Virus record (IMG/VR): IMGVR_UViG_3300033153_005734
Span: 1 to 39,723 of that record
Origin: a virus
Direction: 5' to 3' (one strand)
Length of the DNA: 39,723 bases
Position 1 is the stretch's first letter. Every line of letters starts with the position of its first letter. Positions 4,201 through 39,387 of this stretch are shown here, in pieces. A program made the translations under genes and the position numbers. The notes under the pieces were generated by a model. That model searched no databases. It was not told the origin of the DNA and saw only the letters and a program-made list of their open reading frames with translations.

Positions 4201-4663
4201 TTCCTGTTGGATAAATAGAACCACTTACAGCACTTCCTGTTATATTCCCTTGATCCACTGTAACAGCAGCTCCATATTCACCAAACTCAATAGCAGCACT
4301 TGTTACTAATCCAGCTGAATTAGCTGAACGAACTGATACTTGATTAACATTTACCACATCACCAACATTACTATTAGCACTAATAAGGTTTACCGCATAC
4401 TGATCGTCTTCAAAAGTTACTGTGTAGCCATTTAAAATTTCAACTGTACGTGCTAAGTCTACACCTCCTACACTTAATGGTGGGTTATGATCGTGAGTTT
4501 TTACATATGTAATTCCTTGTTCATTGTCTTCTAAATCTTTAAGTGTTAATCTAAAAGCATTTAAATCCAGTTCATAAATTGGAACTGGATTTACCTGAAT
4601 CTGATTCATATCAACTTTAAATACACTTATAACCTTGGTAGGCCAATTAATCGTTATTGCCAT
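1208..4663 (-). CDS. Large tail fibre/adsorption protein with three beta-helix repeats
   Basis: 1151 residues. The N-terminal 130 residues (RLTLKDLEDNEQGITY, GYTVTFEDDQYAVNL, NVNQVSVRSANSAGLV) match, from memory, a tail-associated domain common in phage structural genes. Then follow three diverged copies of a roughly 230-residue module, starting near 134, 369 and 602. Each opens with [VI]D-x-x-N-G/x-x-x-G-x-x-[FY]P-x-GT and P-x-DN-x-x-DA-x-x-IA. The many short strands and G-D-S turns suggest a pectate-lyase-like beta-helix. The last 300 residues look like a separate globular beta domain, possibly the receptor-facing tip. Tail function is inferred from family resemblance and neighbours. Confidence 0.75.
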   Translation of the reverse strand: MAITINWPTKVISVFKVDMNQIQVNPVPIYELDLNAFRLTLKDLEDNEQGITYVKTHDHNPPLSVGGVDLARTVEILNGYTVTFEDDQYAVNLISANSNVGDVVNVNQVSVRSANSAGLVTSAAIEFGEYGAAVTVDQGNITGSAVSGSIYPTGTLRRPSDNIPDAVVIAAARGFGQINIIGDLTLGGGDDVSDMTLIGVNTTQTIITIGDSANVLNCEFREATVTGILDGGSQIEHCYLEYLNYVNGVIRHCTIGDSITLGGYAAAEITNSFSGIPGESTPSINCGDSGQSLALRDYNGGIRLYNKNGDDDISLDINSGQIILDSTITNGTIVCRGLAKLTDNSTATANVIDELLNPTNIQKASLSEVFIDQANGDTGTIFPAGTLSNPVDNVADAVVIAVERGFTQISILGNLTLTDEDISNYTLVGENAGQTTLTIGASADITNCEINECTVTGVLDSGVIIRDGIIYNATGMNGLAFRTILQGTITMGDSAATFLSCYGSEEPSLTTIDMNAGGANAQLIDFNGGIQIENLGDSTTSIELYVGAGEVTLDSTVTQGEIHIAGTAKLTNNTTEQDGLIIDIDGLATPVDLQYDGSVYIDTINGTSGAFYPKGTRAAPVDNMADAMTIALLRNIRNIIFTGSIALDRELSGYSFTGIGAINDSTVDLNGQLIDRMTFERCEVTGIENAVVPPEAGRWLDNVRIEFRSCYINNVTDLEGNSHACRTDGDLYVKAGGTFAGTEVVVEGDFCVFYMRGVAGTSISLDVLSGWVQVEDLVTDGYVDLNMKGGELSFYPSCTGGTYYLEGYGNLWDETEPGTLTVIENHLLALETIPHNIWRAMKSEYANDIGSFGADLATKADLRIQDSSFTDQSISATMIYGTETGSNLSINRRDGIYWQITEDETDGLEIEMIFNLPSLNHKPGTFNLYGYYTGIQFYNAYPDHYLDLWVYDYNAVAWEQISEGFMNGNMEDSVDYSQQFEERHVDRTNNNEVKFRIIHNDDLWDWYVGTHNLFIDCVEVSSVSTSKAIWDYVVGDTSAYTMLQQTWSLAGGDRLINNNREYFYSASSSNMPGDTVAVFLLLDSLGDSTETNVYQRTKIYPQASYQYDPDGDSVVIYHSARTHREQGEYIYLPAGEMIFDSDATTSVNAAT

Positions 4664-4687
4664 TATGACATTACCTTTCCGAAAAAC

Positions 4688-4915
4688 TTAAGAAGTTCCA
4701 CCACTGAATACAATAGTTTGTATTGTAGCTAGTTGTTTTTTTAATAAAACAATATCATTATCTCTAGACATAATCGTATTTTGTAAACTGATTACTTTTT
4801 GTTCCAATTCTCTTACTAATTTTCTAGTTTCATTTGAATGACTTATTGTTGTATTCACATTTCTTGTTGTTACTTCTTCAAAAGCCTTTCTTAATTCTTT
4901 GTCGCCTGTTGCCAT
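4688..4915 (-). CDS. Small coiled-coil protein of the fibre cluster
   Basis: 75 residues with one long predicted helix (about residues 5-67): KELRKAFEEVTTRNVN, then RKLVRELEQKVISLQNTI and LLKKQLATIQTI, with hydrophobic residues at heptad spacing. It ends in a short FSGGTS tail. It lies between two very large fibre genes, with 2 bases to the upstream gene and 24 to the downstream one. Small coiled-coil proteins in such positions often act as fibre trimerisation, hinge or assembly factors. Here that is inference from position and heptads only. Confidence 0.55.
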   Translation of the reverse strand: MATGDKELRKAFEEVTTRNVNTTISHSNETRKLVRELEQKVISLQNTIMSRDNDIVLLKKQLATIQTIVFSGGTS

Positions 4916-4917
4916 TT

Positions 4918-6804
4918 TTATTCATCCCTTATAAGTTGTATTGTTGTTGTAAAACCAGTAGAACTATCAACTATTCCTGATACTGGTTGACTAGTATAAT
5001 AATATGGAGTTCCTTCAGCTTCTCTTACCCTTCCAGTTATTGGTTGACTAATAGGAACTGGTCTTTCATCATAAACTGATCCTGAATCACCTGTTAGTTC
5101 ATTTATAAAAGCAAATGTAGAAGTAATAGTTCCTGTTGCTGGAGATATTAGAATAGCTTCATTAGTAATATATGTATAACTATCACCTGATAAAACTGAT
5201 ATTGAATAAGCACCGTTATATACATCTTCATTAGCACCACGTATTATTACATCATCACCTGTTGATAATCCATGTGAAACATGATAAGCCCAAACACTAT
5301 CACCAGAAGTATCACCAGTAGATAATGTTACACTTTCTTGATAAGGAAAGTTTGATCCATTAGTAGGATAAATTAAAACTCTTGCTCCAATAATACTATC
5401 ACCAGAAGTAATATCTTTTACTTTAATATAAGTTGTAACAGGATCTGTTACTATTGTAGTTGTAGCACTTGTTCCATTTCTTACTGTTGGTGTAATTCCA
5501 CCACTTACAGTTATTGTCACTAGTCCTCCACTATTATTATATACGCTTTCTTTTCCAGTTGATCCATCTGTTCCAGCATATCCAGTATAAGTAAAGTTTG
5601 TAAATGTATAACTACCAGTTGCTTCTATATAAATAGCATGTCCTGAATCACCAGAAACAAAAGTTAAATCACTCCAAGCTCCTGTTCCTTCTCCATCAAG
5701 TAATACAGCACCAATAGGATAGGTAGAGTTTGAAATAGTATTACCTGTAAATGTAACTACGCCAGGATCTATTTGTCCAATAACATTAAATGTATTACCT
5801 GTTATTGTATGATTAAATGCGAAACTATCTCCACCAAAAATAATAGAATCACCTAAACCAGTGAATGTACTATTTGTAATAGAAAGTTCTTCTATACCAT
5901 AAAGACCAAGAGTTCCATCTGAAAAGTTACAAGAAACATAAGGACCAGCAGTTGTTATAACTGCTGCATCTAAAATAAAATGGGTTGAATCACCAGTGTC
6001 AGTATCACCCATAACATGTATATAATATTTGTCATCACCAATATATCTATTCTCAAAAATTAATGAAACATTTGAATCTTCAAACCAAGAAGCTCCATTT
6101 GAATCACCAAAATTTAATGGCCCTTGTAATCCATATACACCAGTAGAATATTCTCTTATTATTCCATGAGCTTTTCCTGTTGATTTATCTCTATCTTCTG
6201 TTACTATTTCTAAAAAGTTTCCTCTATTACCTGTAGTTCCACCTGTTACTCTTAAACCATCATTTCCATATCTAATAATATCTACCCATTCATTAAAACC
6301 ACCAGCAAGGGCTTTTGAATCTACTTGGAACCAAGCACCAACTTCTGTTAAACCAGTAGTAAAATCTAATCCTGTGTCACCAGATTGAATAGTATATTCA
6401 GCATCAGCTAATTTATTAAGATAACCACCACCTGTGTCTATAACAAAACAAGCAAATGTTACTTGATTATCTGAATGTTTAAATACTAATCTATCATTTC
6501 CCTGTTGCCATAATGTTACTTGATTAGTTCCATCACCAAGAAATATAGAATGAACATCATTAGCATATCCTATTTGTGTAGCAGAGTTATTTGTCCAAAT
6601 ATATATTAATGTCTCTACCATTGGAACTGCTGCACCTGTCCAATATATTCCTTCTGCTCCACCTGAACCAAGAGTACTGTTTGGTAATGCTATAGAACTT
6701 GATGCTTCTGCATAATCAAGAGTTTCGGCAGTACCGGCATTCCAGTTTGTATCTGCGTTTGCGTCATCTAATACTGTCCTTAAATCTGTGACTGTAACTG
6801 CCAT
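4918..6804 (-). CDS. Tail fibre/spike-like beta-rich protein
   Basis: 628 residues, Gly/Ser/Thr/Asn rich, with short repeated strands in the central part (FTGLGDSIIF, NTFNVIGQIDPG, TFTGNTISNSTYPIGA) that suggest a beta-helix. The C-terminal 170 residues (IIGARVLIY, HGLSTGDDVIIRGANE, YNGAYSISVLSG, SPATGTIT, SQPITGRVR) match a domain I recognise from many phage structural proteins. It carries 12 GD[ST] tripeptides. Its 5' end overlaps the 3' end of the upstream gene (6780-6804) by 25 bases. A role in adsorption or baseplate decoration is inferred from these family features. Confidence 0.7.
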   Translation of the reverse strand: MAVTVTDLRTVLDDANADTNWNAGTAETLDYAEASSSIALPNSTLGSGGAEGIYWTGAAVPMVETLIYIWTNNSATQIGYANDVHSIFLGDGTNQVTLWQQGNDRLVFKHSDNQVTFACFVIDTGGGYLNKLADAEYTIQSGDTGLDFTTGLTEVGAWFQVDSKALAGGFNEWVDIIRYGNDGLRVTGGTTGNRGNFLEIVTEDRDKSTGKAHGIIREYSTGVYGLQGPLNFGDSNGASWFEDSNVSLIFENRYIGDDKYYIHVMGDTDTGDSTHFILDAAVITTAGPYVSCNFSDGTLGLYGIEELSITNSTFTGLGDSIIFGGDSFAFNHTITGNTFNVIGQIDPGVVTFTGNTISNSTYPIGAVLLDGEGTGAWSDLTFVSGDSGHAIYIEATGSYTFTNFTYTGYAGTDGSTGKESVYNNSGGLVTITVSGGITPTVRNGTSATTTIVTDPVTTYIKVKDITSGDSIIGARVLIYPTNGSNFPYQESVTLSTGDTSGDSVWAYHVSHGLSTGDDVIIRGANEDVYNGAYSISVLSGDSYTYITNEAILISPATGTITSTFAFINELTGDSGSVYDERPVPISQPITGRVREAEGTPYYYTSQPVSGIVDSSTGFTTTIQLIRDE

Positions 6805-7265: not shown

Positions 7266-8996
7266 TTATTCGTCCGTGGTTCTTATAACACTGATAGACT
7301 GGTTATTGTCAGCAAATGACCAAGCAGAGATAAACTCTTTAATAGGTGTTGAATCTCCATCTCTTACTACTACTACTAAGTTTCTATTTCCTGAGTATAC
7401 ACCAGTATAAGGAAATCTTGAATCACCAGGAAGAGTATCACCATATGTTATATAAACATTATTTCCTGAATCTCCACCTACAATATCAAAGTCTTCATTA
7501 CCATCTGTTGATGAAATAATAAATGTATCACCAGCTGTCCAACTTGAATATTCAAGTCTTCTTTCAAACCCATCATTATCAAGTACTCTTATTGTTCCAG
7601 TTGCTGGAGTATCAGCAGGAATAGCTACTTCTTCACTATCACCAACTTCTATAAAAGTAGCATTTGCTGAGTTGAGATATGTTTTTAATGTAAGTTGATT
7701 TTTAAGTATAGCAGGGTTTCCCTCTACATCTGTTGCTGATCCATCCCAAGGTGCTACAAGTACTCTATCCTCTAAAGGAATAAGACCTGTAACAGTATTA
7801 GTTACATTATTTGGTGGATTCTTAACTACATTTTTTAAGTCGAATAAAGTATCATTATTTGTTAAGTCTAAGTATTCAATACCTACACCATAAGCACCAA
7901 TGATAGCACTACCAGTTGAAGCTCCAATAAATGGAGTTGAAATAGTAGCACTTCTATCAACTATTGCTCCTATTGTAGCAGAATCACCACCTTGAATCAA
8001 TCCTAATGCTGATGTTGCTGTTGGTGCTACACCTCTAAATAATTGGAACCAAACTGTATCGCCACTATCGGCTAATACTTGTCCCACACCAGAAGTATCA
8101 CCAAATCCCCAAGTAATTGAATCACCTTCATCAAATGTTCCCCAAAGGCTTGTATATGATACTTGATGTGTTATACCTCTAAATAATTCTGCTGAAATAC
8201 CATATAACTCTGTATCTCCACCATCTCTTGTAATGGCTTTAGCATATTCATATAAATCATTTATACTAAATGTTGATCTATCCCATTCACTATAAAAGTA
8301 TTCATCTACAGCATCATTATTTACATCAATAGCTACATATCCTGGTGTAGTATTTGAAATACCCCATTCTTCTGCTGTATCACCTGATGTATTATTAAGG
8401 TCTGATGCATCTGAAAGAGCTAATACATTATTACCTCTTGATGAACCATTGATTAAGAACTCACTATATGTGAATCCATTTCTTCTACAAGTTCCTAAAA
8501 TTCTTCTACCATCAATATCAGATCCTTCACTTGTAACTTTCAGCATGAATCTATGTGAAATACCAGCAGTAGCAGAAGGATTAACTCCTACTCCACTTTG
8601 ATTCCACCAATCGTCAGATGTTACTACTCCATCTTGTATAATTTGTATTTGAACATCTGCGTTTCCGAAATTTACTATTCCATCCCATACTGTATCACCT
8701 CCACTTTGAATAATAGAACCATCAAAAAGATGTTCTGAAGATGCATCATCTATATTATAATTTCCAAGTAATGTGATAATGTTATCAGTTGAACGAGCAG
8801 ATGGATTCTCGTTTGTGATATCAAGTTCGTCATCACCAGCAGCTACGGCATCATCTGCCAAGTCTTGTAACCATCTGTGAAAGTTAATAACTGTATCGTA
8901 TGTAGGAGTTCCTGTTGCGTGAGTATCACCAATGTATCTAATATCTCCTGCTGCACGATCAACAGTCCAATCAGTATCGTTAAATGTATAAGCCAT
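7266..8996 (-). CDS. Virion structural protein, tail fibre/adsorption type
   Basis: 576 residues starting MAYTFNDTDW; an AGGAGA site lies 12 bases upstream of the ATG. Recognisable blocks are FHRWLQDLADDA, HLFDGSIIQSGGD, DGIVNFGNADVQIQIIQDG, GISHRFMLKV, DIDGRRILGT and GFTYSEFLINGSSRGNNVLA. I recall these from a structural protein family frequent in marine and other environmental phages. Fourteen GD[ST] tripeptides are spread along the chain, the highest density in the window. It starts a run of fibre-type genes read leftward, so a tail-fibre role is the best inference. Confidence 0.7.
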   Translation of the reverse strand: MAYTFNDTDWTVDRAAGDIRYIGDTHATGTPTYDTVINFHRWLQDLADDAVAAGDDELDITNENPSARSTDNIITLLGNYNIDDASSEHLFDGSIIQSGGDTVWDGIVNFGNADVQIQIIQDGVVTSDDWWNQSGVGVNPSATAGISHRFMLKVTSEGSDIDGRRILGTCRRNGFTYSEFLINGSSRGNNVLALSDASDLNNTSGDTAEEWGISNTTPGYVAIDVNNDAVDEYFYSEWDRSTFSINDLYEYAKAITRDGGDTELYGISAELFRGITHQVSYTSLWGTFDEGDSITWGFGDTSGVGQVLADSGDTVWFQLFRGVAPTATSALGLIQGGDSATIGAIVDRSATISTPFIGASTGSAIIGAYGVGIEYLDLTNNDTLFDLKNVVKNPPNNVTNTVTGLIPLEDRVLVAPWDGSATDVEGNPAILKNQLTLKTYLNSANATFIEVGDSEEVAIPADTPATGTIRVLDNDGFERRLEYSSWTAGDTFIISSTDGNEDFDIVGGDSGNNVYITYGDTLPGDSRFPYTGVYSGNRNLVVVVRDGDSTPIKEFISAWSFADNNQSISVIRTTDE

Positions 8997-13006: not shown

Positions 13007-13038
13007 TGTTTCTGGTTTTATCTTTACTTAAAAAACAA

Positions 13039-13067
13039 TGGACTAAAAATATAAAATGTTTTATAAT
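13039..13067 (+). promoter_or_regulatory. Sigma70-type promoter, LGK cluster 1
   Basis: TGGACT (13039-13044), a 17-base A/T spacer and a perfect TATAAT (13062-13067). Only five bases separate the -10 box from the ATG at 13073, so the transcript should start at or within a base or two of the start codon: a leaderless mRNA. Confidence 0.7.
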
Positions 13068-13072
13068 AAGAT

Positions 13073-13273
13073 ATGAATGGAAAACTATACGCTTTAGGTA
13101 AAATATTTAATGACAAAAGAATGAGCGATTATAGATTAGATTATATTAGCTTTATAGAAGGACCTTCATATCATATTGCCATGATATATCTTGTTGATGG
13201 AGAAGGGCGTTATAGTTATCAAGAAAAAAATGGGCATAGATTATGTTTTTATTGGAGAAGTAGTGAGTGGTAA
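13073..13273 (+). CDS. LGK family micro-protein 1
   Basis: 66 residues, opening MNGKLYALGKIFNDKRM. The N-terminal N-x-K-L-x-x-L-G-K-[IV]-F motif defines a family with 13 members in this window. After the motif the chain is short and strand-rich (SYHIAMIYLVDGEGRYSYQE), with no recognised domain. It is the first gene of an eight-gene overlapping series, and its ATG lies so close to the TATAAT that translation is probably leaderless. Its TAA overlaps the GTG start of the next gene. Function unknown. Confidence 0.65.
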   Translation: MNGKLYALGKIFNDKRMSDYRLDYISFIEGPSYHIAMIYLVDGEGRYSYQEKNGHRLCFYWRSSEW

Positions 13274-13463
13274 ACTAGAGTTTATAGGAAATTTATTTAA
13301 AGCTGAAATGGAAAAAGCTCATGTTAAATATTATCGTGCTGATAGTGGGAAAATGGTGACATTAGTTTATGCTTATCCTAAAGAAAATAGTTCTGGAATG
13401 TATCATTATAGATATGATAGTGTTCATGATATATGCTTACACTCTTTTATTCATGAACACTAA
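13263..13463 (+). CDS. LGK family micro-protein 2 (GTG start)
   Basis: 66 residues. The start chosen is GTG at 13263, giving MSGKLEFIGNLFKAEMEK, because it aligns with the family motif and has GGAG six bases upstream. An in-frame ATG at 13191 would add 24 unmatched residues lying inside gene 1. The first codons overlap the end of gene 1 by 11 bases. The body is strand-rich (KMVTLVYAYP, GMYHYRYDS). Function unknown. Confidence 0.55.
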   Translation: MSGKLEFIGNLFKAEMEKAHVKYYRADSGKMVTLVYAYPKENSSGMYHYRYDSVHDICLHSFIHEH

Positions 13464-13629
13464 ATTAAAATGTTTAGGAGAAATTTGGCTTACTGATTTA
13501 TTTGATAAATGTTTGTATGTTGATGAAATTTGTGTTGTAGAAACTGGAAGACATAAATCTGTACAAGTAACAGTAAAAGGATTAAAAATAAATCTCGGAG
13601 AGATATTTAATTTTGGGAAAGAAGAATGA
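13453..13629 (+). CDS. LGK family micro-protein 3
   Basis: 58 residues: MNTKLKCLGEIWLTDLFDK, then a short strand-rich body (KSVQVTVKGLKINLG). The start ATGAACACTAA contains the stop codon of gene 2, an 11-base overlap also seen at genes 8 and 11. There is no Shine-Dalgarno site, so translation likely depends on ribosomes finishing gene 2. A longer in-frame reading from 13369 lies within gene 2 and does not match the family. Function unknown. Confidence 0.55.
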   Translation: MNTKLKCLGEIWLTDLFDKCLYVDEICVVETGRHKSVQVTVKGLKINLGEIFNFGKEE

Positions 13630-13829
13630 ATAAAAAACTAAAAGCATTAGGCGAAGTCTTTAAGAAAGGTAAAATGCTCGGTTCAGGAGAGTTACTTTCT
13701 GTATATTTTTATCCTGGTAATATTAAAGCATTTGTTGTAAGTGTTAAAATATATAACGAAAAATATAAAAGAGATGAACATAAATATGTTTGGGGTAGCT
13801 ATGAACAAGAAATTAGAAATCTTAGGTAA
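13626..13829 (+). CDS. LGK family micro-protein 4
   Basis: 67 residues, MNKKLKALGEVFKKGKML, basic and strand-rich. Its ATG overlaps the TGA of gene 3 as ATGA, the classic coupling arrangement. A purine-rich GGGAAAGAAGA precedes it. The last ten codons are read in another frame by gene 5. Function unknown. Confidence 0.6.
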   Translation: MNKKLKALGEVFKKGKMLGSGELLSVYFYPGNIKAFVVSVKIYNEKYKRDEHKYVWGSYEQEIRNLR

Positions 13830-13971
13830 AATATTTCTTAATAAGAAAATCAATGAGGCTAAAGCTGAAGTTTATGTTATATCTTATGATGTAATTAATC
13901 TGGTTATTCTATTTTGTCTTGATGAAGAAGAAACTCTTTATATAGAATGGAGATGGGGTGAAGATGAATGA
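13801..13971 (+). CDS. LGK family micro-protein 5
   Basis: 56 residues, MNKKLEILGKIFLNKKINEA, with an acidic tail (CLDEEETLYIEWRWGEDE). It starts 29 bases before gene 4 ends, so the conserved motif is encoded in an alternate frame of gene 4. GGGG lies about six bases upstream. The DNA coding for LGKIF contains a 15-base string shared exactly with genes 1 and 8. Function unknown. Confidence 0.55.
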   Translation: MNKKLEILGKIFLNKKINEAKAEVYVISYDVINLVILFCLDEEETLYIEWRWGEDE

Positions 13972-14215
13972 GAAACTAATATTCTTAGGGTGTTTATTTA
14001 ATACAGGAACAACTTCTTTTACTCCTGTAATGTTATTTCATCTTGATCCGGATATAATATTTTATACAAACTATGTATCTGATCCGTTTACTTTTCATGA
14101 AAATAATGGAAGAACGGGTGTTGCTCAGTATATTTATTATGATGAGAAAAATAAAACTGGTATTGAAGAATATAATAATGGAATAAAGAGATGGGAACCG
14201 ATAATAGTAAACTAA
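13964..14215 (+). CDS. LGK family micro-protein 6
   Basis: 83 residues, MNEKLIFLGCLFNTGTTSF; a divergent copy in which Cys-Leu replaces Lys-Ile. The ATG at 13964 is preferred over a GTG two codons earlier because it aligns with the family and follows GGGGTGAAG. It overlaps gene 5 by 8 bases. The body contains an Asp/Tyr-rich stretch (YYDEKNKTGIEEYNNG). Function unknown. Confidence 0.55.
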   Translation: MNEKLIFLGCLFNTGTTSFTPVMLFHLDPDIIFYTNYVSDPFTFHENNGRTGVAQYIYYDEKNKTGIEEYNNGIKRWEPIIVN

Positions 14216-14391
14216 GAGCGTTAGGAAAAGTATTTATAGATAAAGACATATTCTCAGATGATATAGATAATCATATAACAGTAGCATTTTCTCCAGCATA
14301 TTGTCTTAAAAAGTTTTATATTTGGTATTATCCACGAGGGTTTAAATGGATGAGAACAAATAAGGTATTTAAGTTTCGTAATGAACAGTAA
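14191..14391 (+). CDS. LGK family micro-protein 7
   Basis: 66 residues, MGTDNSKLRALGKVFIDKD, with three extra residues ahead of the motif. It overlaps gene 6 by 25 bases. The body is aromatic (YCLKKFYIWYYPRGFKW). Its 3' end overlaps gene 8 by 11 bases with the ATGAACAGTAA arrangement. Function unknown. Confidence 0.55.
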   Translation: MGTDNSKLRALGKVFIDKDIFSDDIDNHITVAFSPAYCLKKFYIWYYPRGFKWMRTNKVFKFRNEQ

Positions 14392-14569
14392 AATAAGAGC
14401 ATTAGGTAAAATATTTTTAATTAATGATATGTCTATACATTTAATAGATATTGAACTTAAAGGGAAAGAAATATGGTTATGGTTTGGCTTATTTGGAATG
14501 AAACATACTAGATATAAAATGGTTTTTAATTTTAAAGAGGTAGAGGTTGCTAAAAAAGTTAAAAAATAG
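14381..14569 (+). CDS. LGK family micro-protein 8
   Basis: 62 residues, MNSKIRALGKIFLINDMS, then an aromatic/hydrophobic middle (GKEIWLWFGLFG) and a lysine-rich end. Last of the overlapping series. The promoter of the AAA+ ATPase gene lies over its 3' end. It has no Shine-Dalgarno site and starts within the stop region of gene 7. Function unknown. Confidence 0.55.
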   Translation: MNSKIRALGKIFLINDMSIHLIDIELKGKEIWLWFGLFGMKHTRYKMVFNFKEVEVAKKVKK

Positions 14570-14575
14570 TATAAT
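14547..14575 (+). promoter_or_regulatory. Sigma70-type promoter for the AAA+/VWA operon
   Basis: TTGCTA (14547-14552), 17-base A-rich spacer, TATAAT (14570-14575), 27 bases before the ATG of the ATPase gene. A strong GGGGAAGG ribosome-binding site follows, so unlike the LGK promoters this one makes a normal leader. Confidence 0.7.
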
Positions 14576-14602: not shown

Positions 14603-16087
14603 ATGGATAAAAATACCATTGCGTTCAAGGTTCAGGACGCTGTAAATTTTGGTTTTAATAACTTTGGATTAGATAAAACTAGAGTATCAAAAATCAGTAA
14701 CGTAAGCGTTGATTACGTTGAACTAAATACAGAAATAGAAAGACTAATAGAACTCGTAAAGAAAGGAAGGAAGTTTGAAAACTTTCATTCCCTTTTCATT
14801 TATGGGCCTACTGGTGTTGGTAAATCAGAACTCACAAAAAAGATAGCAGAAGCACACGGCTGTATCTATCATAAACTTGAGATCCAAAAGATTCCAATAG
14901 AAGAATTTGAAGGATTTCCATATCTTGAAGATAGAGACGGAACTAAGGTTACTCGTCTCGCAAGTCCAACTGTATTGCCACCATCAGGTGATGACAGAGT
15001 TTGGCTTCTTCACTTAGATGAGTTCAATAAAGCTGATTCAGATAAAATGGCGGCTGTAATGAATTTAGTTCTTACGGGTGAGATTGGTGGTAGTGCCGAT
15101 TTTAATAGCGAAACTGGTAAATCAGAAAAGTATCGTCTTCCAGAGAAGACTATTATAGTTGGTTCAGGAAACTTTAAGACTCAGGAAAATACTGAGAACC
15201 TTAATCTTGTTAATCAAATGGATATTGCTACCTCTGAACGTTTTCACAGGACAGTTCTACTTGATTATAATGCGGAGAGTTGGTTGGAGAACTTTGCTAC
15301 TAAAAGATTTTCTTTTCATTTTAATGGAGACAATCATACGGTATCAAGCAGAGTATCTCCGATAATTTTATATTATGTAATGGATAAGATGCGGGAGGAA
15401 GGTAATAGATCCCCTTTTACTATTCCTATCTCGTTTCGTCCAGATGAGGGCGGTGGGGAACGAACATCCTCACCGCGCTCCTGGACACTTGTATCTGATA
15501 ATATGTTATTGGATGCAGTTGTAGCTTGGGAAAAATTAAGGAATGAAGATTACGATAAATATTGTGAATATGAGGGGAAAGCAGTAGAAGTTCACGATGA
15601 TATTAGCCGTGGTTTTGATATGTTCTTTCAAGATCCAAATAGTCAAATCAAGTTCCTTGAAACACAAGCGAATGAGTTTGGTTTAGAAGGATATAAGATA
15701 GTAGCTGAGATAATCTCACGTTATGCTTATTTCGCAGACAATAGAATTCTTGCAGAAGAAGTTGTATTTGAATATGAGAAAGTAAAGAATAGAGTTCTTG
15801 AAACAAAAAATAAAGCAGGAGTAATTCTTTATCTTCTAGTAAGTATGGGATATTTAGTAGATAAACTTGAGAAAGAAGGTAACGACTTAAAACGTATAGC
15901 AGCAAGTATTTCAACATTCTTTGAAGATACTGATATTTCATCTGAGGATATTTGTGCTTTCATTCACATAGTAAATAATTCTACAAATGAAGTAGCAAAA
16001 GAAGTTCATAGCTTATTGAACACATTTTCTAAGAGGTATAAAAATGCATTCGGGGACTTCTATTACACCTCTAAACGAGAAATTTAA
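14603..16087 (+). CDS. MoxR-type AAA+ ATPase
   Basis: 494 residues. Walker A is GPTGVGKS (68-75), Walker B is VWLLHLDE (133-140) with FNKAD after it, sensor-1-like VGSGN lies near 185, and an arginine-finger candidate is in TSERFHR. MoxR-type AAA+ ATPases work with VWA-domain partners as chaperones that remodel or activate target complexes, and a VWA gene lies just downstream. The C-terminal half is helical. It has its own promoter and ribosome-binding site, and its end overlaps an LGK gene by 44 bases. The phage target is unknown. Confidence is high for the ATPase and moderate for the MoxR clade. Confidence 0.85.
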   Translation: MDKNTIAFKVQDAVNFGFNNFGLDKTRVSKISNVSVDYVELNTEIERLIELVKKGRKFENFHSLFIYGPTGVGKSELTKKIAEAHGCIYHKLEIQKIPIEEFEGFPYLEDRDGTKVTRLASPTVLPPSGDDRVWLLHLDEFNKADSDKMAAVMNLVLTGEIGGSADFNSETGKSEKYRLPEKTIIVGSGNFKTQENTENLNLVNQMDIATSERFHRTVLLDYNAESWLENFATKRFSFHFNGDNHTVSSRVSPIILYYVMDKMREEGNRSPFTIPISFRPDEGGGERTSSPRSWTLVSDNMLLDAVVAWEKLRNEDYDKYCEYEGKAVEVHDDISRGFDMFFQDPNSQIKFLETQANEFGLEGYKIVAEIISRYAYFADNRILAEEVVFEYEKVKNRVLETKNKAGVILYLLVSMGYLVDKLEKEGNDLKRIAASISTFFEDTDISSEDICAFIHIVNNSTNEVAKEVHSLLNTFSKRYKNAFGDFYYTSKREI

Positions 16088-16265
16088 TAGGAAACTTAGA
16101 CAACTAGGAAAATTGTTTTTAAGTAATAAAACAAATGACCCTTTAATATTTGAAGATGAAAAGAATATTATATATTTTAGAACTATATCATACGTTGATA
16201 GTTTTGATACATATGATATAGTTACATCAAAAAGAAGAGAAAATGAGACCAGAAAAAATAAGTAA
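16044..16265 (+). CDS. LGK family micro-protein 9, inside the AAA+/VWA operon
   Basis: 73 residues, MHSGTSITPLNEKFNRKLRQ followed by LGKLFLSNKTND. The motif is preceded by about 12 extra residues. It overlaps the ATPase gene by 44 bases and the VWA gene by 23, so all three are read from one transcript and coupled. An AGAGG site precedes the ATG. The C terminus is basic (SKRRENETRKNK). Its position between partner genes suggests a link to that complex, but function is unknown. Confidence 0.6.
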   Translation: MHSGTSITPLNEKFNRKLRQLGKLFLSNKTNDPLIFEDEKNIIYFRTISYVDSFDTYDIVTSKRRENETRKNK

Positions 16266-17829
16266 ATTAGCAATGTATACACAGATACACGAACCTCTTG
16301 TTTATCTGTTCATTATCAATACAGATTTTGTAGAAGATGATGGAACAGTATTGGGTGAATTTGGTATGGCTGGTGTTACTACAAGAAATAAACGTATTAA
16401 GTTTTTTTATAACTCAAGATTACTTGGATTAGTAACAGAAGAACTATTCTTTGTTGTTCTTCACGAAGCATATCATATCTTTAAAAAGCATTTGACAAGG
16501 TTTCCAGATTTACAACAAGAAAACATGACTATTCTTAATATAGCACAAGATGTTGTTATCAATGAAGAAATAGCGGCCCTACCTATGCACAATTCAACTA
16601 CTGGCATTAAACCAAAAATATTAGATAGTGCTTGTAGAGTAGAACCAGAATATCTTGCTTTACATGAAAAACTTGGGCCGAAAGAATCTTTAACTACAAG
16701 AAGACTATATAACTATTTATATAATAAGAAGATCAATAAGAAGGATCTTCTTAAGAAGGGTAGTTTTGTAAGGATTAAAGGAACAGATAAATACGGTAAA
16801 ATAACTAATACACAATCTTCTAAAGGTGAAGATTATTACGAAGTAGATGTAATGTCTAAAGATGATTTTAAAGAAGAAGTAATGGGTGGAAAAGGTGCTG
16901 GAAGTTATCACAATCAAACCTTTCATGAAGATGAACTTATTCCTGTAGTTAGAGGTAGAGATACCAGTGATAAAGGAAAGCCAGTAGATTTTGATATTGA
17001 AGTAATTGATCCTATTGATGTTCATATAAAACAAGATGAGTTGGATGATATTGAACAAGAAGTATTAGCCAAGAAAATATTTGAACAAGCAAAAGATATG
17101 GAGAAAAAGGCTGGCAAGTCTGCTGGATCAAATGAAGGTCATTTTACTAAGAGTATTGAGGATATATTCAAGTCAAAAGTAAACTGGAAGAAAGAATTAA
17201 ATAAGCATTTGAATGTATTCACAGCTAATAACTGTATGACTAAAACTACAAGACCAAGTTTCATTACTTATCCTTGGAATCCTAAAAGTAGATATGGTAT
17301 TTTATGTAAACATACAATATCAGAAGTTGGTAATAAACAAAAGTTTATTATTATTGGTGTTGATACTAGTGGTAGTGTATTTTATGATAAACAAGAAATG
17401 GCTACATTCTTTACTGAGGTAGATGCTTTAGCAAAATGGTTTGAGTTTACTAAAGAAGGAACTGTATTAACAGTTCAATGGGATGCTAAAATAGCAGAAG
17501 GAATAAAAATATATCGTAAGGGAGATTGGAAAACTTATGATTTAAAAGGTGGTGGTGGAACTATTCCACACGCATTATTCGAATATCTTACTGAGATATA
17601 TAAGAAAAAAGGTAATCGTTATATAGTAAACGAAAATGATGTGAAGTTTATTATTGATGAACCAAAGAAACTTCCTTTCGTTATTGTATTGACTGATGGT
17701 TATTTTTATTCTCCATTCAGGAAAAAGGATCTTGGTATATATAAAGATTGTCATAAGAATGTTTTATTCTTCACAAAGCAAGACAACTATATTGGCAATG
17801 ATTTAAAGAGAATTGTATATGAAGGTTGA
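16243..17829 (+). CDS. Metallopeptidase-like plus VWA-domain protein, partner of the AAA+ ATPase
   Basis: 528 residues. The N-terminal part has a zincin-type motif (VVLHEAYHIFKKH, HExxH at 74-78), as in DUF2201-type proteins. A basic, charged middle follows (FVRIKGTDKYGKITNT). The C-terminal VWA-like domain has an intact MIDAS D-x-S-x-S in IIIGVDTSGSVF (about 372) and the strand IVLTDGYFYSP (about 485). In related pairs the VWA protein gives a MoxR ATPase its substrate specificity. It shares the ATPase operon through the overlapping LGK gene. Whether the HExxH site cleaves peptides is not shown. Confidence 0.8.
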   Translation: MRPEKISKLAMYTQIHEPLVYLFIINTDFVEDDGTVLGEFGMAGVTTRNKRIKFFYNSRLLGLVTEELFFVVLHEAYHIFKKHLTRFPDLQQENMTILNIAQDVVINEEIAALPMHNSTTGIKPKILDSACRVEPEYLALHEKLGPKESLTTRRLYNYLYNKKINKKDLLKKGSFVRIKGTDKYGKITNTQSSKGEDYYEVDVMSKDDFKEEVMGGKGAGSYHNQTFHEDELIPVVRGRDTSDKGKPVDFDIEVIDPIDVHIKQDELDDIEQEVLAKKIFEQAKDMEKKAGKSAGSNEGHFTKSIEDIFKSKVNWKKELNKHLNVFTANNCMTKTTRPSFITYPWNPKSRYGILCKHTISEVGNKQKFIIIGVDTSGSVFYDKQEMATFFTEVDALAKWFEFTKEGTVLTVQWDAKIAEGIKIYRKGDWKTYDLKGGGGTIPHALFEYLTEIYKKKGNRYIVNENDVKFIIDEPKKLPFVIVLTDGYFYSPFRKKDLGIYKDCHKNVLFFTKQDNYIGNDLKRIVYEG

Positions 17830-17854
17830 CATAAAAATATAAATGTTGTATAAT
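17826..17854 (+). promoter_or_regulatory. Consensus sigma70 promoter
   Basis: Perfect TTGACA (17826-17831), a 17-base spacer and perfect TATAAT (17849-17854). The spacer closely resembles that of the 13039 promoter. It overlaps the last codons of the VWA gene and drives the gene at 17878. Confidence 0.85.
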
Positions 17855-17877
17855 AAACAAAAGAACAGGTGGTGAAA

Positions 17878-18306
17878 ATGGCGAAGAAGAAGTTAGAATG
17901 GTTATTAGCAAGAAAGTCTACGGACGAACTTGTTAGATTACCAAGTGACGAACATCCAGAATATGATATGATCCTTAAACACATAGAAGAGGCTTATCCA
18001 AGGACTGAACATCCAGATATGGTAGGAGCATTATTTCCAGAAGGATATAAGATTGCGGCAGTTCTTTTGTTTGACGATCAAAAGGATTCAAAGAATGATA
18101 AGTGGGAATTTATTATTTATGATGTGACTAAGGATTTGGGAATAGAAGCTGGTACTATTACATTAGATAATCTTGATGCTTTTAATGAGACTGAAACTAT
18201 GGAAGATAAACTTGAAATTATTAAAAGTATATCTGGTCATTATGAAGAGATCATAAAGGAATCTGTATCTATTATCAGACAATATAAAGGCAACGGAACT
18301 TCATGA
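17878..18306 (+). CDS. Hypothetical acidic protein
   Basis: 142 residues from the ATG at 17878 (MAKKKLEWLLARKSTDELV), chosen because AGGTGG precedes it at proper spacing; a GTG three codons upstream would overlap that site. The protein is rich in Asp and Glu and mostly helical, with a central strand pair (YKIAAVLLFDD, KWEFIIYDVTK). No motif recognised. The consensus promoter just upstream suggests strong early expression. It overlaps the next gene by 4 bases (ATGA). Confidence 0.6.
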   Translation: MAKKKLEWLLARKSTDELVRLPSDEHPEYDMILKHIEEAYPRTEHPDMVGALFPEGYKIAAVLLFDDQKDSKNDKWEFIIYDVTKDLGIEAGTITLDNLDAFNETETMEDKLEIIKSISGHYEEIIKESVSIIRQYKGNGTS

Positions 18307-18611: not shown

Positions 18612-20156
18612 TTATATTCTAAGGTTGCTTATGGTAAGTTTACCATAATGCCATTGGCCACGAACTACTTTATGTAGAGCGTAACGAGAGAAGAATCCCC
18701 GAATACTATTGAAGTTATCAGGATCTGTTACCAGACCAGATACCCAGTTTACATAAGGAGCGTAAACTACACCAGCACCGTAGGTACTGTTGTTACTCTT
18801 GTATCCAAGAAGTACTTCATCGCTGTTTCTGTTAGGATCAACAAAAACTTGAAGGCCACTTGCAAGTCTACCAGCTTCGAATACATTAAATGTTCCACCA
18901 GAGATTTCTCCCTTGAAGTCAGGAAGCATATTAAATACTGCCGCGATTTGTGGAGACACTACTGCCCATGAAGCAGGTCCTTGTCTATTATAAGAAGCGA
19001 TTTTCGCGCTAATTTGATAGATCTTTTGAGTCATAGCTCTATGTCTATCTAGATAGTTTCCGCTAGCATTGTTTCCAGTGTTAGGACTATCTGCTGTCCA
19101 GTCGTGAATAAATGAAAGTGATGATTGAACTTGGTCACCAATAAAACTTATGATTTCACGGTCGATTTCATAGTTCATTTCCATGCTAGCTACCTTAACC
19201 AATTCACCTTCTACGTCGATCTTGTGGTAAGCTCTCATGTCTTGCTCAGCTTCTTTTGTCCAACGAACTTTCAATTTACGTTCGGTTGTTTCAACAGTTT
19301 CACTGCCGATTGAGAATTCCATCTCTGGAATATCATTTGATGCTTCTTGGTTGTATACTAAGTATACAGTTACTTCTTCGCCACCAACCCATGCTGAACT
19401 TGCATCTGCAACATCTCTCAATAAAATGTCACCAGTAGCTACATTATAATATGTATCATATGCGCCAGACCATGTTGGTGCGCCACCGCCAGCTACTACA
19501 GGTTGCATAGTAGTTGCGAATTGTGTTCCGTCAGCATTGTTATAAACTTCAATTCTCTTAAGTGTAAATGTAGATACTCCATTAGCATCAGCTATAGTAT
19601 CACCTAAAAATGCTGAGATTTGTGTTCCACAATCAATAAGAGTACTGTCACCAGTAGTCGCTATTGTAGTTGTGAAAGGTCCGATTTTTTCACTTGTATA
19701 CCAAGTTGCAAAAGCGGGTGTTCCCTGTTGAATAACACCTGTGTATTCATCATCGGCTGTAATTCCACCCTTTGTATTTGTGAAATCGTATCTGATGTAA
19801 TAAATAACACCAGTTCTTGCTTGAATAGGTTGTATAGAAACAAGCTTATTAGCAATAAGGGTAGGGTATACACGTCTGATAATAGGGAATAAGATTCTAG
19901 GAATCAGGTTAGTACCCGCGTCCGTAGAAACTGTTGGGGCTTCTGTAAGAACTTCTTCACCTTCGTTTAATACGTTAGTTTCAAGCCATCCCTCAGAAAC
20001 TTGGTTGTTCGCCAACATTTGATCGTATGAATTCTCAAGAACCAACGATACATTATATTTTTGTTCATAATCATCAATATCTTCTGTTAGCCAATCCCAT
20101 CTGTTTACAAGTCGTTGCTCTTCAGCAATTCTTGCGTCTTTACTCATATAAGGCAT
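18612..20156 (-). CDS. Major capsid protein, T4 gp23-like
   Basis: 514 residues from the ATG at 20156 (MPYMSKDARIAEEQ), chosen because GGAGG (20166-20170 on the complement) lies nine bases upstream; the upstream ATG at 20213 has no such site. The block IPRILFPIIRRVYPTLIANK followed by LVSIQPIQARTGVIYYIRYD matches the gp23 N-arm and early HK97-fold region. LTE|A (70-73) fits the T4 prohead protease consensus, close to gp23's cleavage after residue 65; LNE|G is a few residues before it. A putative loop (residues 175-260) carries GDS and GDT. It is flanked by terminators, so it forms its own transcription unit. Confidence 0.92.
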   Translation of the reverse strand: MPYMSKDARIAEEQRLVNRWDWLTEDIDDYEQKYNVSLVLENSYDQMLANNQVSEGWLETNVLNEGEEVLTEAPTVSTDAGTNLIPRILFPIIRRVYPTLIANKLVSIQPIQARTGVIYYIRYDFTNTKGGITADDEYTGVIQQGTPAFATWYTSEKIGPFTTTIATTGDSTLIDCGTQISAFLGDTIADANGVSTFTLKRIEVYNNADGTQFATTMQPVVAGGGAPTWSGAYDTYYNVATGDILLRDVADASSAWVGGEEVTVYLVYNQEASNDIPEMEFSIGSETVETTERKLKVRWTKEAEQDMRAYHKIDVEGELVKVASMEMNYEIDREIISFIGDQVQSSLSFIHDWTADSPNTGNNASGNYLDRHRAMTQKIYQISAKIASYNRQGPASWAVVSPQIAAVFNMLPDFKGEISGGTFNVFEAGRLASGLQVFVDPNRNSDEVLLGYKSNNSTYGAGVVYAPYVNWVSGLVTDPDNFNSIRGFFSRYALHKVVRGQWHYGKLTISNLRI

Positions 20157-20230
20157 TCCAATTTTCCTCCGTTTGTATTTTGTCTTTTCAAAGGTTATCT
20201 TTACGCTATCCATTTTTTTGCAGTTTAATG

Positions 20231-22080: not shown

Positions 22081-22698
22081 CTATAGACCGAACACATCTT
22101 CCCAAACTTTAGAGAACTTTGCTGTTGCGCCGAGAACTACATTAGATGTATGATTCTCAAGTTCTTCTCTTACATAATTTGGAAAGGATTCCTGTGAGGG
22201 ATCGAAAACTATATCAATAGCTTTCATGCGGTAGCCAGGTTTTACGTTTACATATCCGGTGCCTTCCTTAACAAGTGGCCCATAATACGGCTCAACACTT
22301 CCAACGCCTCTGGTTGATACTCCAAGTCTTACATTCGCTTTCATTAACTCTCTTAATGTTCTTCCTGGTTCTGTATCTAAAGCTTCCGCTTCTCCTAATA
22401 CAGCACCATCATCAGCTATATGAAGTTTAGTAATAACGTGGGATATTCCCTTTACGTTGATTTTTGGACTTGGTGGATGGTCAAGCTCACCTACTAGTCC
22501 TCTATTTGAAATAGACTCACTAATCGCATTAATACAATCTTCCATTACTGCTCTAGTGTATATTCTTTTGTTCTTATTGGGGTGATCTACTCTTGAGAAA
22601 ACTCCTCTAAGTAAGAACTTTTTGTCTCCTGCTTGTTCATCTTCAAAGAGTTCATATCTTTCAATAAAACTAAAGTCTTCTAAAAACATTTGTTCCAT
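22081..22698 (-). CDS. Prohead core protease, gp21-like
   Basis: 205 residues from the ATG at 22698 (MEQMFLEDFSF); a GGGAG site lies in the end of the upstream gene and a TTG five codons earlier is less likely. Conserved family blocks are RGVFSRVDHPNKNKRIYT (31-48), GLVGELDHP with the likely catalytic His (74), and RLGVSTRGVGSV with the likely catalytic Ser (128). Gp21-type proteases cleave scaffold, core and capsid proteins after [LI]-x-E inside the prohead, then degrade themselves. The neighbours carry matching sites. Confidence 0.88.
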   Translation of the reverse strand: MEQMFLEDFSFIERYELFEDEQAGDKKFLLRGVFSRVDHPNKNKRIYTRAVMEDCINAISESISNRGLVGELDHPPSPKINVKGISHVITKLHIADDGAVLGEAEALDTEPGRTLRELMKANVRLGVSTRGVGSVEPYYGPLVKEGTGYVNVKPGYRMKAIDIVFDPSQESFPNYVREELENHTSNVVLGATAKFSKVWEDVFGL

Positions 22699-22699
22699 T

Positions 22700-23236
22700 T
22701 TACTTACTCCCAAAAGATGCTAGTTGGTTTTTTAATTCACCCTTAACCTTACCAACCCAAGCTTTCCTTTTCTCTGTTGTTTCTGCTTTTTTAGAAGCTT
22801 TTGCAGATGCTTCTTTTTGTGCAACAGATTTTCTAGACCTAGAAATTTTTTGAGCTTCTGGTTTAGCTGCTGCTTTACCGATATTTTTATTTACTTGCTT
22901 TCTTAATCCTTTAATCCTAGAAATTTTACCTCTAAGTTCTTTTAAAGATGCCGCGATCTTATCCTTATCTCCCATTCCACCAACAAGTGCTTTTCTAATC
23001 TTACTAGCTTCGCCAGCTAACTTGTCATGTTCTTTTCTCCATTGAGAAACATCAGGGGAAAGACTTTCGCCTTTAACTGCACCAATCTTTTTATATGAAC
23101 CACCATCCATAGCAACACCATTGTCTATTTTACTTACTATTTTCTTCACATAAGTATCAGACTCTTTCTCTTCATTAAGTCCATTAAGGAGAGCATCAAA
23201 TTCTATATCATCAATTGTTTCTTTTACAACCATCAT
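22700..23236 (-). CDS. Basic prohead core-type protein
   Basis: 178 residues. The first 40 are acidic (ETIDDIEFDALLNGLNEEKE). The rest is strongly basic and Lys/Ala/Ser-rich (RGKISRIKGLRKQVNKNIG, KISRSRKSVAQKEASAKASK), resembling histone-like or internal head proteins. It occupies the slot of T4 genes 67/68, between portal and protease, and ends one base before the protease ATG. It probably packs in the core or binds DNA, but no family is recognised. Confidence 0.6.
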   Translation of the reverse strand: MMVVKETIDDIEFDALLNGLNEEKESDTYVKKIVSKIDNGVAMDGGSYKKIGAVKGESLSPDVSQWRKEHDKLAGEASKIRKALVGGMGDKDKIAASLKELRGKISRIKGLRKQVNKNIGKAAAKPEAQKISRSRKSVAQKEASAKASKKAETTEKRKAWVGKVKGELKNQLASFGSK

Positions 23237-29692: not shown

Positions 29693-29721
29693 TTGCCAAA
29701 AAATAAAATATGGTTTATAAT
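29693..29721 (+). promoter_or_regulatory. Sigma70-type promoter, LGK pair
   Basis: TTGCCA (29693-29698), a 17-base spacer and TATAAT (29716-29721), seven bases before the ATG at 29729. As at 13039, the transcript should be leaderless or nearly so. It faces away from the terminase gene. Confidence 0.7.
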
Positions 29722-29728
29722 TATATAT

Positions 29729-29971
29729 ATGAATGTAACTGAAACCAATTCTAAATTATGGCTGTTGGGAAATTTTTTCCTTGATGATTGTTTTACATAT
29801 GGATATGAACAGTTTTCCCTTTATGATAAAGTCATTCAGAGTATTGATATTGCGTTTGATGTGGATAATGTTAATATAAATATAACAGGTGATAGAAGAC
29901 CTTGGCAATATCAACATCCTATATTTATAAAAGGTCATTTTATCGCTATGTATGGAACTGATGAACAATAA
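29729..29971 (+). CDS. LGK family micro-protein 10
   Basis: 80 residues, MNVTETNSKLWLLGNFFLDD; the start at 29729 is chosen because the -10 box lies just upstream, which rules out the ATG at 29672. The body is strand-rich and acidic (VIQSIDIAFDVDNVNINITG). It is the first of two overlapping LGK genes embedded on the plus strand between minus-strand terminase genes. Function unknown. Confidence 0.6.
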   Translation: MNVTETNSKLWLLGNFFLDDCFTYGYEQFSLYDKVIQSIDIAFDVDNVNINITGDRRPWQYQHPIFIKGHFIAMYGTDEQ

Positions 29972-30302
29972 ACTTTGGTTATTAGGTAAAGTATTTATAC
30001 ATCATGGATATCAAGTATCTATCTTTGATCCTAATAAAAGAAAACTCTTTCCTGAAGATAGTTTAGGGGAAATGATTTTAAAGTTTTTACCTGATCTCTA
30101 TACTCTTGAAATATGGTCTACTTCTGATGAAAGCCTATTTGATTTTGATAATGGAGATAATTCTTTAATAGCTTGTATTAATTCAGAAAATGGGTCTGAT
30201 AATGGTAATGGAAGAAGTGGAGTTTATTCTTTTAAAAATGATTCTATTGTCTTTAATCTGATCCGTCATCTCTCAGATCAGCGGCAAGTCGGATATCATT
30301 AA
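29961..30302 (+). CDS. LGK family micro-protein 11
   Basis: 113 residues, MNNKLWLLGKVFIHHGYQ. Its ATG at 29961 lies in ATGAACAATAA, which contains the stop of the preceding gene; the ATG three codons earlier is less likely. The body contains DESLFDFDNGDNSLIACINS and a polar Asn/Gly stretch. Its last 50 bases run into the 3' end of the opposite-strand gene at 30253, a convergent overlap. The first 15 residues resemble LGK protein 10 (KLWLLG), so this pair is a recent duplication of the leader. Function unknown. Confidence 0.55.
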   Translation: MNNKLWLLGKVFIHHGYQVSIFDPNKRKLFPEDSLGEMILKFLPDLYTLEIWSTSDESLFDFDNGDNSLIACINSENGSDNGNGRSGVYSFKNDSIVFNLIRHLSDQRQVGYH

Positions 30303-31173: not shown

Positions 31174-31848
31174 TTATCTTATTCCTTCAAATATCTCGGT
31201 ATTGTATTGACTTAATTCATTAACAAAACCGCGTATTTGATTGTTTTTTATTCCATAAGAACGACCCCAAGTATATAAATCACTTTTACTAATAAACTTC
31301 TTAGTCTTTCTCAAGTAATCTATAATCAATGAAGCTATTCTATTATACTCGTCCCTCTTCTTCCCTAAATAATTCTCATCTATGATCCCGAACAACGTAT
31401 CTTCTAAGTTGTCAAAGAATAGATCGTAATTAATTTCTTGCCTATTTTCCAATGTAGTATTATAATCCTCTATGTTTTGATGGTTTCTATGTTTCTTCTT
31501 TCTATCAGTATAGTTTAATAAACTAATTTTAGCAATGATACTAAAGTAATTAAATGTTGTTCCCTTCTCGGGATTAAACTTCATAAAATTTGTATAGCAC
31601 GCATGAATTCCGTGTTGCATTAAATCATCATAATCTTCAAAGATATAATATCTATATACTATTATGATAGCATTAACTATCTTCTTTATTTCTTTAAGAA
31701 GTTTCCGTTCTAGTTTCCTGTCTGTTATTAATACGTGTTTTATATCATCAGGATGACACGTAGTAACACCTTGATACTCAAAAAGCATTGTTTGAAATTC
31801 TTGTTCGTTAAAGTAGTTTTTTGTTTTTTTAAGTTCTGTTTCTGCCAT
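31174..31848 (-). CDS. Late-transcription sigma factor, gp55-like
   Basis: 224 residues. Residues 70-122 resemble sigma70 region 2: FEDYDDLMQHGIHACYTNFM then KFNPEKGTTFNYFSIIAKIS and LLNYTDRKKKHRN, the part that binds core polymerase and the -10 element. No region 4 is visible, as in T4 gp55. Gp55 directs host RNA polymerase to late promoters, so this protein is probably the switch for the minus-strand virion genes. The ATG overlaps the upstream stop (TAATG). Confidence 0.75.
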   Translation of the reverse strand: MAETELKKTKNYFNEQEFQTMLFEYQGVTTCHPDDIKHVLITDRKLERKLLKEIKKIVNAIIIVYRYYIFEDYDDLMQHGIHACYTNFMKFNPEKGTTFNYFSIIAKISLLNYTDRKKKHRNHQNIEDYNTTLENRQEINYDLFFDNLEDTLFGIIDENYLGKKRDEYNRIASLIIDYLRKTKKFISKSDLYTWGRSYGIKNNQIRGFVNELSQYNTEIFEGIR

Positions 31849-32799: not shown

Positions 32800-32988
32800 T
32801 TAATCAATTAATGGTTTTTTAAATTGAAAAGTTGTTGAATTAAAGCGTTGACCTATATCACCGTCATATACGCTATATGAATATAATGCTATACATCCAG
32901 CATCTTCGTCCATTTTAAAAATATGATACGGATATTCATCCAAATATTTACATAAAAAAATCTTTCCTAACGCTGTTAGTTTAGTCAT
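32800..32988 (-). CDS. LGK family micro-protein 12
   Basis: 62 residues from the ATG at 32988: MTKLTALGKIFLCKYLDEY. A TTG four codons earlier lies inside the upstream gene's end and is less likely. The only other minus-strand LGK copy in the window is number 13. The body is strand-rich (GCIALYSYSVYDGD). It lies four bases after the preceding gene and is followed by the hairpin at 32713-32777. Function unknown. Confidence 0.6.
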   Translation of the reverse strand: MTKLTALGKIFLCKYLDEYPYHIFKMDEDAGCIALYSYSVYDGDIGQRFNSTTFQFKKPLID

Positions 32989-38785: not shown

Positions 38786-39085
38786 TTATGCGTTATCTAA
38801 TTTAATAACAAACTTTCCTTTATTCTCAATCACTATTATTTTTGTTCCATCTAATAGGCTTACCTTAAAAGAAGTATAGTAATAAAAATCTTTTATTTCT
38901 GAGGCTGTTACTATTTTACCTGTAAATGGATCTTGAAAATCTGCCACAATACCCATGTCAAAGGCTTGTGGCGTTGCGGGTTTTTGTTGTGGGTATCTTT
39001 GAAATGCTTTTCGTAAGTCTTCATACGTCCTAAATCTAGTATAGGATGGTTGAGTAAATACTTTTTCTTTATTATTTTTTCTCAT
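38786..39085 (-). CDS. Hypothetical protein
   Basis: 99 residues (MRKNNKEKVFTQPSYTRFRT...). A basic N-terminal part with aromatic residues, then a strand-rich part (TGKIVTASEIKDFYYYTSFK, VSLLDGTKIIVIENKGKFVI). Its ATG overlaps the upstream stop by 4 bases. It is last before the nested terminator. No family recognised. Confidence 0.45.
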   Translation of the reverse strand: MRKNNKEKVFTQPSYTRFRTYEDLRKAFQRYPQQKPATPQAFDMGIVADFQDPFTGKIVTASEIKDFYYYTSFKVSLLDGTKIIVIENKGKFVIKLDNA

Positions 39086-39387
39086 TCTTTCAGGTCTATG
39101 AATCCACTTATTCCATATTGATCTTTTTTTTCTTCATAAGAGCCGTCTATCTCTAATTCAAAATCTCCCCACTCTAGTTGAGTAGATTCTCTTCCAGTAG
39201 GAAATATTTCTATTTGATTTGTGAGTATCTCAGTTAATATCATTGCTGTCTTATGTATAACTTTACTTGGGATAGGTTCAGCAGTATAGCCGTTCCATCC
39301 CTTTTCAAGTTCTTCATATCCATATAGTCTTATAAACAAATTAGGATTAAGAAAAATAGCTCCTATATGAGCTAACTTCTTATTCAC
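39082..39387 (-). CDS. LGK family protein 13 with a W-N-G-Y domain
   Basis: 101 residues. The N terminus is MNKKLAHIGAIFLNPNLFIR, a diverged LGK motif. Unlike the other copies it continues into a domain I recognise as widespread: KGWNGYTAEPIPSKVI, then IEIFPTGRESTQLEWGDFEL and EIDGS. In other bacteria and phages this pattern (GWDGY-A-PI ... P-x-G...QLEW...LEI) occurs in small proteins, some near toxin-antitoxin genes. Here it shows that the LGK leader can be attached to an unrelated body. Function unknown. Confidence 0.6.
   Translation of the reverse strand: MNKKLAHIGAIFLNPNLFIRLYGYEELEKGWNGYTAEPIPSKVIHKTAMILTEILTNQIEIFPTGRESTQLEWGDFELEIDGSYEEKKDQYGISGFIDLKE

Follow-up and report, generated by a model that had tools for sequence, protein, structure and literature searches.

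A constant N-terminal leader on fast-changing microproteins in one phage group

Thirteen small genes with a shared N-terminal leader and mostly dissimilar bodies were characterised in a virus record of 39,723 nucleotides (39.7 kb), analysed over its whole length and referred to here as the window. The best-supported part of the result is evolutionary: a constant N-terminal element is carried by rapidly changing microproteins with early-type promoters. Our preferred reading, held tentatively and at a probability of roughly 45%, is that these are undescribed phage microproteins of the early, host-polymerase phase, used against the host and built from a constant docking leader and a fast-changing effector body. 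Each protein would consist of a short leader (K-[LI]-x-x-L-x-x-[ILV]-F, probably helical), serving as the docking element through which all members would reach the same partner or place, and a small body acting as a diversified effector in host takeover or counter-defence. Gene number would grow through tandem duplication, in operons whose genes overlap and are translationally coupled, after which the bodies would diverge or be replaced behind the leader. The docking role, the effector role and the early timing are inferred from sequence.

Phage genomes contain large numbers of small early genes without names, for most of which no role has been assigned. A shared leader would offer a handle on them: used as bait, a single peptide could identify the partner common to dozens of proteins that are otherwise beyond recognition, and the use of a constant address on a replaceable body could be examined in phages other than T4.

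Phage setting

The window is part of a phage genome whose head genes are of T4 type (major head protein, portal, prohead protease and large terminase). The T4-type prohead protease was identified at 22081-22713 (match to phrog_207, head maturation protease, E 2e-41). Its nearest annotated head-protein relatives, at ~25-27% identity, belong to huge metagenomic phages, Rhodothermus phage RM378 and Flavobacterium phages.

Three further observations concern this region. Residues 85-95 of the major head protein (18612-20213, minus strand) hold an N-terminal-region VLTE/A that resembles a T4-type prohead protease site by its letters rather than by alignment to the mapped T4 site. Adjoining the head genes, a protein with a weak match to sigma-70 region 2 (31174-31848, minus strand) is a candidate late sigma factor, and its gene is kept in all relatives covering that region. 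Genes for a radical SAM protein and a ribose-phosphate pyrophosphokinase lie in the structural region (34477-35361 and 37429-38382, minus strand).

Leader motif and its thirteen members

All 13 leader genes were found where a preliminary description of the sequence had placed them, eight in a row and the others elsewhere, on both strands (Table 1). Across these members the leader reads K-[LI]-x-x-[LI]-G-x-[ILVF]-[FW]: K1 and G6 are invariant, positions 2 and 5 are always L or I, position 7 is K, N, E, C or A, and position 9 is always F or W. It usually starts 2-3 residues past the start codon (6, 8 and 16 residues in for the genes at 14191, 29729 and 16044). The motif count is far above that of 20 simulated windows with equal trinucleotide statistics (13 vs 0-3, mean ~1.4), and when anchored to the N-terminus the motif was matched 13 times, against 1 match for the reversed motif and 0 and 1 for two permuted ones. 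The first wording of the motif was too narrow, because a related phage (G004) has ~22 genes with a shifted leader without Gly; within the window the strict LGK[IV]F ending is present in only 6 of the 13.

Leucine and glycine codons of the leader vary freely (GGT/GGA/GGC/GGG; CTA/TTA/CTT), so conservation and selection are placed at the protein level. A DNA-level signal hidden in the leader codons, such as a promoter or RNA element, was ruled out by this synonymous variation.

The helical moment of the leader supports a helix in G004 (z 3.3) and does not in the window clade (z 1.5), where a strand-like periodicity was found (z 3.0). Structure predictions of two members were unusable (pLDDT 58.9 and 42.3).

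The eight array genes form an overlapping tandem operon, head to tail, with overlaps of 4-29 nt: the gene at 13801-13971 begins 29 nt and that at 14191-14391 begins 25 nt inside its predecessor, and the other five junctions measure 4-11 nt.

Table 1. Leader genes, promoters and neighbouring machine genes in the window. Leader genes start at the nearest in-frame start codon, i.e. at the lower coordinate on the plus strand and at the upper one on the minus strand (GTG at 13263 and 39387).
Feature	Positions	Strand	Length (aa)	Start of protein or promoter sequence	Remark
Leader microprotein 1	13073..13273	+	66	MNGKLYALGKIF	
Leader microprotein 2	13263..13463	+	66	(M)SGKLEFIGNLF	GTG start
Leader microprotein 3	13453..13629	+	58	MNTKLKCLGEIW	
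Leader microprotein 4	13626..13829	+	67	MNKKLKALGEVF	
Leader microprotein 5	13801..13971	+	56	MNKKLEILGKIF	Starts inside gene 4
Leader microprotein 6	13964..14215	+	83	MNEKLIFLGCLF	
Leader microprotein 7	14191..14391	+	66	MGTDNSKLRALGKVF	Body related to microprotein 8
Leader microprotein 8	14381..14569	+	62	MNSKIRALGKIF	
Leader microprotein	16044..16265	+	73		Between ATPase and VWA genes, overlaps both; positional counterparts in G003, G001, G004
Leader microprotein	29729..29971	+	80	MNVTETNSKLWLLGNFF	G012 ortholog, body 32% identical
Leader microprotein	29961..30302	+	113	MNNKLWLLGKVF	
Leader microprotein	32800..32988	-	62	MTKLTALGKIF	
Leader joined to GWNGY...FPTGRES domain	39082..39387	-	101		LR756508 homolog without KLxxLG segment
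Sigma-70-type promoter	13039..13067	+		TGGACT-N17-TATAAT	-10 box ends 5 nt before first array ATG; same spacing in G003, G001/G002/G006
Sigma-70-type promoter	14547..14575	+		TTGCTA-N17-TATAAT	Ahead of ATPase gene; kept in G003
Sigma-70-type promoter	29693..29721	+		TTGCCA-N17-TATAAT	-10 box ends 7 nt before 29729 ATG; kept in G012
MoxR-like AAA ATPase (AAA_5)	14603..16087	+			Directly 3' of eight-gene array
VWA/metallopeptidase-like protein (DUF2201)	16243..17829	+			

Relatives and distribution

Related phage contigs were located via the ATPase, the terminase and the portal. Leader genes not previously described were found in G003 (four, three of them in an array and the fourth between the ATPase and VWA genes), in G012 (five), and in G001 and G006 (two, KLSFLGLLY and KLVYLGLLF, with KLSLLAELF as the counterpart located between the ATPase and VWA genes). 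In G004, a more distant relative (terminase 56%), the leader has the shifted form K-[IM]-x-x-L-x-x-[LIVMA]-F (in short, K-I-x-x-L-x-x-L-F) and occurs in several arrays. These are groups of six (4059-5518), two (7538-7872), six (70375-71198) and three genes (75166-75603), with three more genes upstream of the ATPase and a single one between ATPase and VWA. The reversed motif gave no match in G004.

The leader is uniform within a phage and shifts as a set between phages, with L2 in 23/24 and G6 in 24/24 members of the window clade, and I2 in 19/20 and G6 absent in G004. A docking role is proposed because of this pattern, which is as expected of a shared partner or of a lineage-specific founder; the uniformity can also follow from recent descent, with one founder per lineage. 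It is conceivable, though on present evidence unlikely, that the leader is a phage-wide address label, in which case many unrelated microproteins would be read by one partner (a phage machine, the capsid core or a host factor), the label would drift in concert (L2/G6 to I2/non-G6) and bodies would be freely swapped.

The array directly upstream of the ATPase is kept in G003, G001/G002/G006 and G004, and in the same lineages one member lies between the ATPase and VWA genes, as in the window. This arrangement favours an explanation in which the neighbouring MoxR ATPase-VWA machine would recognise the leader as a tag and the members would be adaptors or clients of that machine. We consider it improbable, as constant co-occurrence was not found: G005, G016, G018 and G019 have the ATPase and VWA genes with no leader gene there, the family was not found anywhere on the 201-kb G018 contig, and other members lie far from the ATPase. 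Since leader genes are present in some relatives and none were found in these four, the distribution is patchy inside one phage group.

Pattern scans of IMG/VR (a strict one; a looser one with 104 stretches, 72 of them newly inspected; and one for the G004 variant, with 53 stretches) returned, beyond chance matches, only this one phage group. The 12 matches in GTDB were all chance hits or unrelated proteins, and tblastn of two members against GenBank phages gave nothing, or weak matches (E 8) inside a different gene. As far as pattern scans can show, nothing convincing was found outside the group, to which the leader would appear to be confined.

Insertions were seen in conserved genes of several relatives. 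The MoxR-like ATPase gene of G003 (L003:2491-4983) has an in-frame intein-like insertion right after the P-loop (GPTGVGK/C...HN/TE), and G019 has a similar one. In G018, G019 and G021, insertions of ~1 kb, which are probably inteins or introns, interrupt the large terminase matches (L228/L229, L236/L237 and L239) near residues 109 and 544.

Variable bodies and gene turnover

Body similarity was low among the 78 pairs of window members (mean z 0.28), with a single pair above 3 (14191/14381, z 5.1). A leave-one-out (jackknife) profile test on 20 members gave a median p of 0.37, with 3/20 below 0.05 and a borderline combined p of 0.046. Bodies of orthologs in relatives are homologous, at 69, 59, 37, 36 and 32% identity; terminase and portal are 86-87% identical in G012. 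Clearly related bodies were also found in recent G004 duplicates (70670/71198, z 15.9; 4526/5333, z 7.2). Together with the one window pair, these duplicates show that the family consists in part of fast-diverging paralogs.

The body of the gene at 39082 is a domain without a Pfam or NCBIfam name. Its only homolog in the GenBank and plasmid searches, with no plasmid match, is in LR756508, a 484-kb metagenomic phage, where the protein starts as the domain itself. A PDB search with the 39082 profile gave weak matches only (best E 0.17).

The earlier idea of a constant leader on different bodies is therefore upheld in part. It agrees with the undetectable similarity among most paralogous bodies and with the occurrence of the 39082 body elsewhere without a leader, and it does not describe the recent duplicates. 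Bodies homologous throughout, which the preliminary description had regarded as speaking against the idea, were found for orthologs and recent duplicates and were undetectable for most paralogs.

Over five ortholog pairs, dN/dS was 0.17 in the leader (45 codons) vs 0.56 in the body (328 codons). Purifying selection is thus stronger on the leader than on the body, as a rough estimate given the small number of codons and the high dS. Flanking genes had a dN of 0.03-0.07, the terminase comparison covering 118 codons only because of a stop in G012. That terminase frame (G012:C1:8457-10325) contains one in-frame TGA, attributable to sequencing error, a frame break or recoding.

These data bear on a rival account, in which the genes form an ordinary paralogous family that evolves very fast and shares one small fold. 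The leader would then be an N-terminal element, conserved because it packs in the core, and the rest would drift under weak constraint, without any docking. The account draws on the recent duplicates with homologous bodies, the borderline combined p and body sizes that are mostly similar, and we judge it possible but rather doubtful: most paralogous bodies lack similarity, the 39082 body is a different domain, and an invariant K1, with G6 in one clade, would be unusual for mere core packing.

Traces of turnover were seen in the DNA. Alignment of the window with G003 extends over the promoter of the first array gene and its leader (13009-13108, 80%) and stops at the last leader codon, the bodies beyond being unrelated; a second alignment covers the 13801 leader and a few codons beyond (83% over 53 bp). 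Genes of the G004 arrays have leaders that are 82-91% alike at the DNA level, and their bodies mostly differ. In G001, an exact 31-nt repeat carrying a ribosome-binding site occurs at two member-gene junctions, just ahead of start codons 2 kb apart, and the body of one member contains a perfect 39-bp tandem duplication. These traces fit tandem duplication, recombination at junctions and fast body change.

Promoters

Near-leaderless promoters, in which the -10 box ends 5-7 nt ahead of the ATG, were often found before clusters and are present in five lineages: the window (2), G003, G001/G002/G006, G012 and G004. In G004, one site (4253) has TTGACA, and two more (4059 and 7872) have weaker -10 boxes and were picked out by eye. 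Simulated windows held a mean of 0.11 near-leaderless promoter sites. Sigma-70-like sites overall were no more frequent than in shuffles; only near-perfect sites at a fixed spacing before genes were taken as informative. Judged from their position, these promoters would start transcripts at or next to the start codon, and a host-type RNA polymerase would thus produce near-leaderless mRNAs. The promoter type alone suggests early timing, and action of the bodies on host targets is suggested by their fast change together with the promoter type. The same arrangement precedes other small G004 genes and therefore marks a gene class beyond the leader family.

A search for T4 late promoters (TATAAATA, one mismatch) gave 201 matches vs 180 by chance, which is close to chance. 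Outside the leader clusters, a perfect sigma-70 consensus promoter (17826-17854, plus strand) lies ahead of the conserved gene at 17869-18306.

Known families and closest systems

The absence of a described family with this leader signature was borne out among Pfam-A, NCBIfam and PHROGs, where no match was significant (best PHROG E 0.013 and best Pfam E 0.023, both below the cut-off). A literature search, with incomplete coverage of subscription papers, found no family with such a leader.

Among the closest known systems, T-even internal proteins are a highly diverse set in which only the N-terminal capsid-targeting sequence is conserved; they act against host nucleases, and their diversity has been attributed to host defences (PMC3012670). 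T4 propeptides with the capsid-targeting sequence measure 10-20 residues (PMC5694885). The leader family resembles the T4 internal proteins (IPI, IPII, IPIII, Alt) in its short constant N terminus, its small and very diverse bodies, and a phage background with T4-type head and prohead protease. It differs from them in lacking a common protease site and basic bodies, in gene organisation (up to eight genes per overlapping operon) and in the G004 arrays that lie away from head genes. Gp53 and gp54 of the giant phage SPN3US are likewise diverged paralogs with an identical 15-residue N terminus, likened by their authors to T4 capsid-targeting sequences (PMC5694885); unlike the leader family, they are large head proteins, only two in number, with cleaved propeptides of >100 residues and an AxE site.

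By analogy, the leader could be a capsid-targeting sequence and the members internal head proteins, packaged in the prohead core and injected with the DNA like those of T4. The T-even precedent, the presence of T4-type major capsid protein, portal and prohead protease, and the several members that adjoin head genes point in this direction. We nevertheless regard it as decidedly improbable, given that the bodies are mostly neutral or acidic, that two G004 arrays (70-76 kb) are away from head genes, and that an (L/I)xE site closing the leader, with cleavage after the glutamate, is inconsistent: over the 40 residues from the leader start, LxE or IxE occurs in only 6/13 window members, and its position varies. 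Because this cleavage site was looked for and not consistently found, membership among the T4 internal proteins is not claimed. A processing signal, one of the roles first suggested for the leader, is likewise unsupported, since no common protease site follows it.

A further likeness concerns the bS21-encoding phages of Chen et al. 2022 (PMC9723584). Those large phages carry bS21 in the neighbourhood of TerL, MCP, protease and portal, and no leader family is mentioned in the part of the paper considered here. Their bS21 is on the strand opposite to the structural genes, whereas in the window it is on the same strand. The window gene for ribosomal protein bS21 (38382-38597, minus strand; Pfam E 4e-17) is preceded by a perfect TTGACA-N17-TATAAT promoter at 38655-38627.
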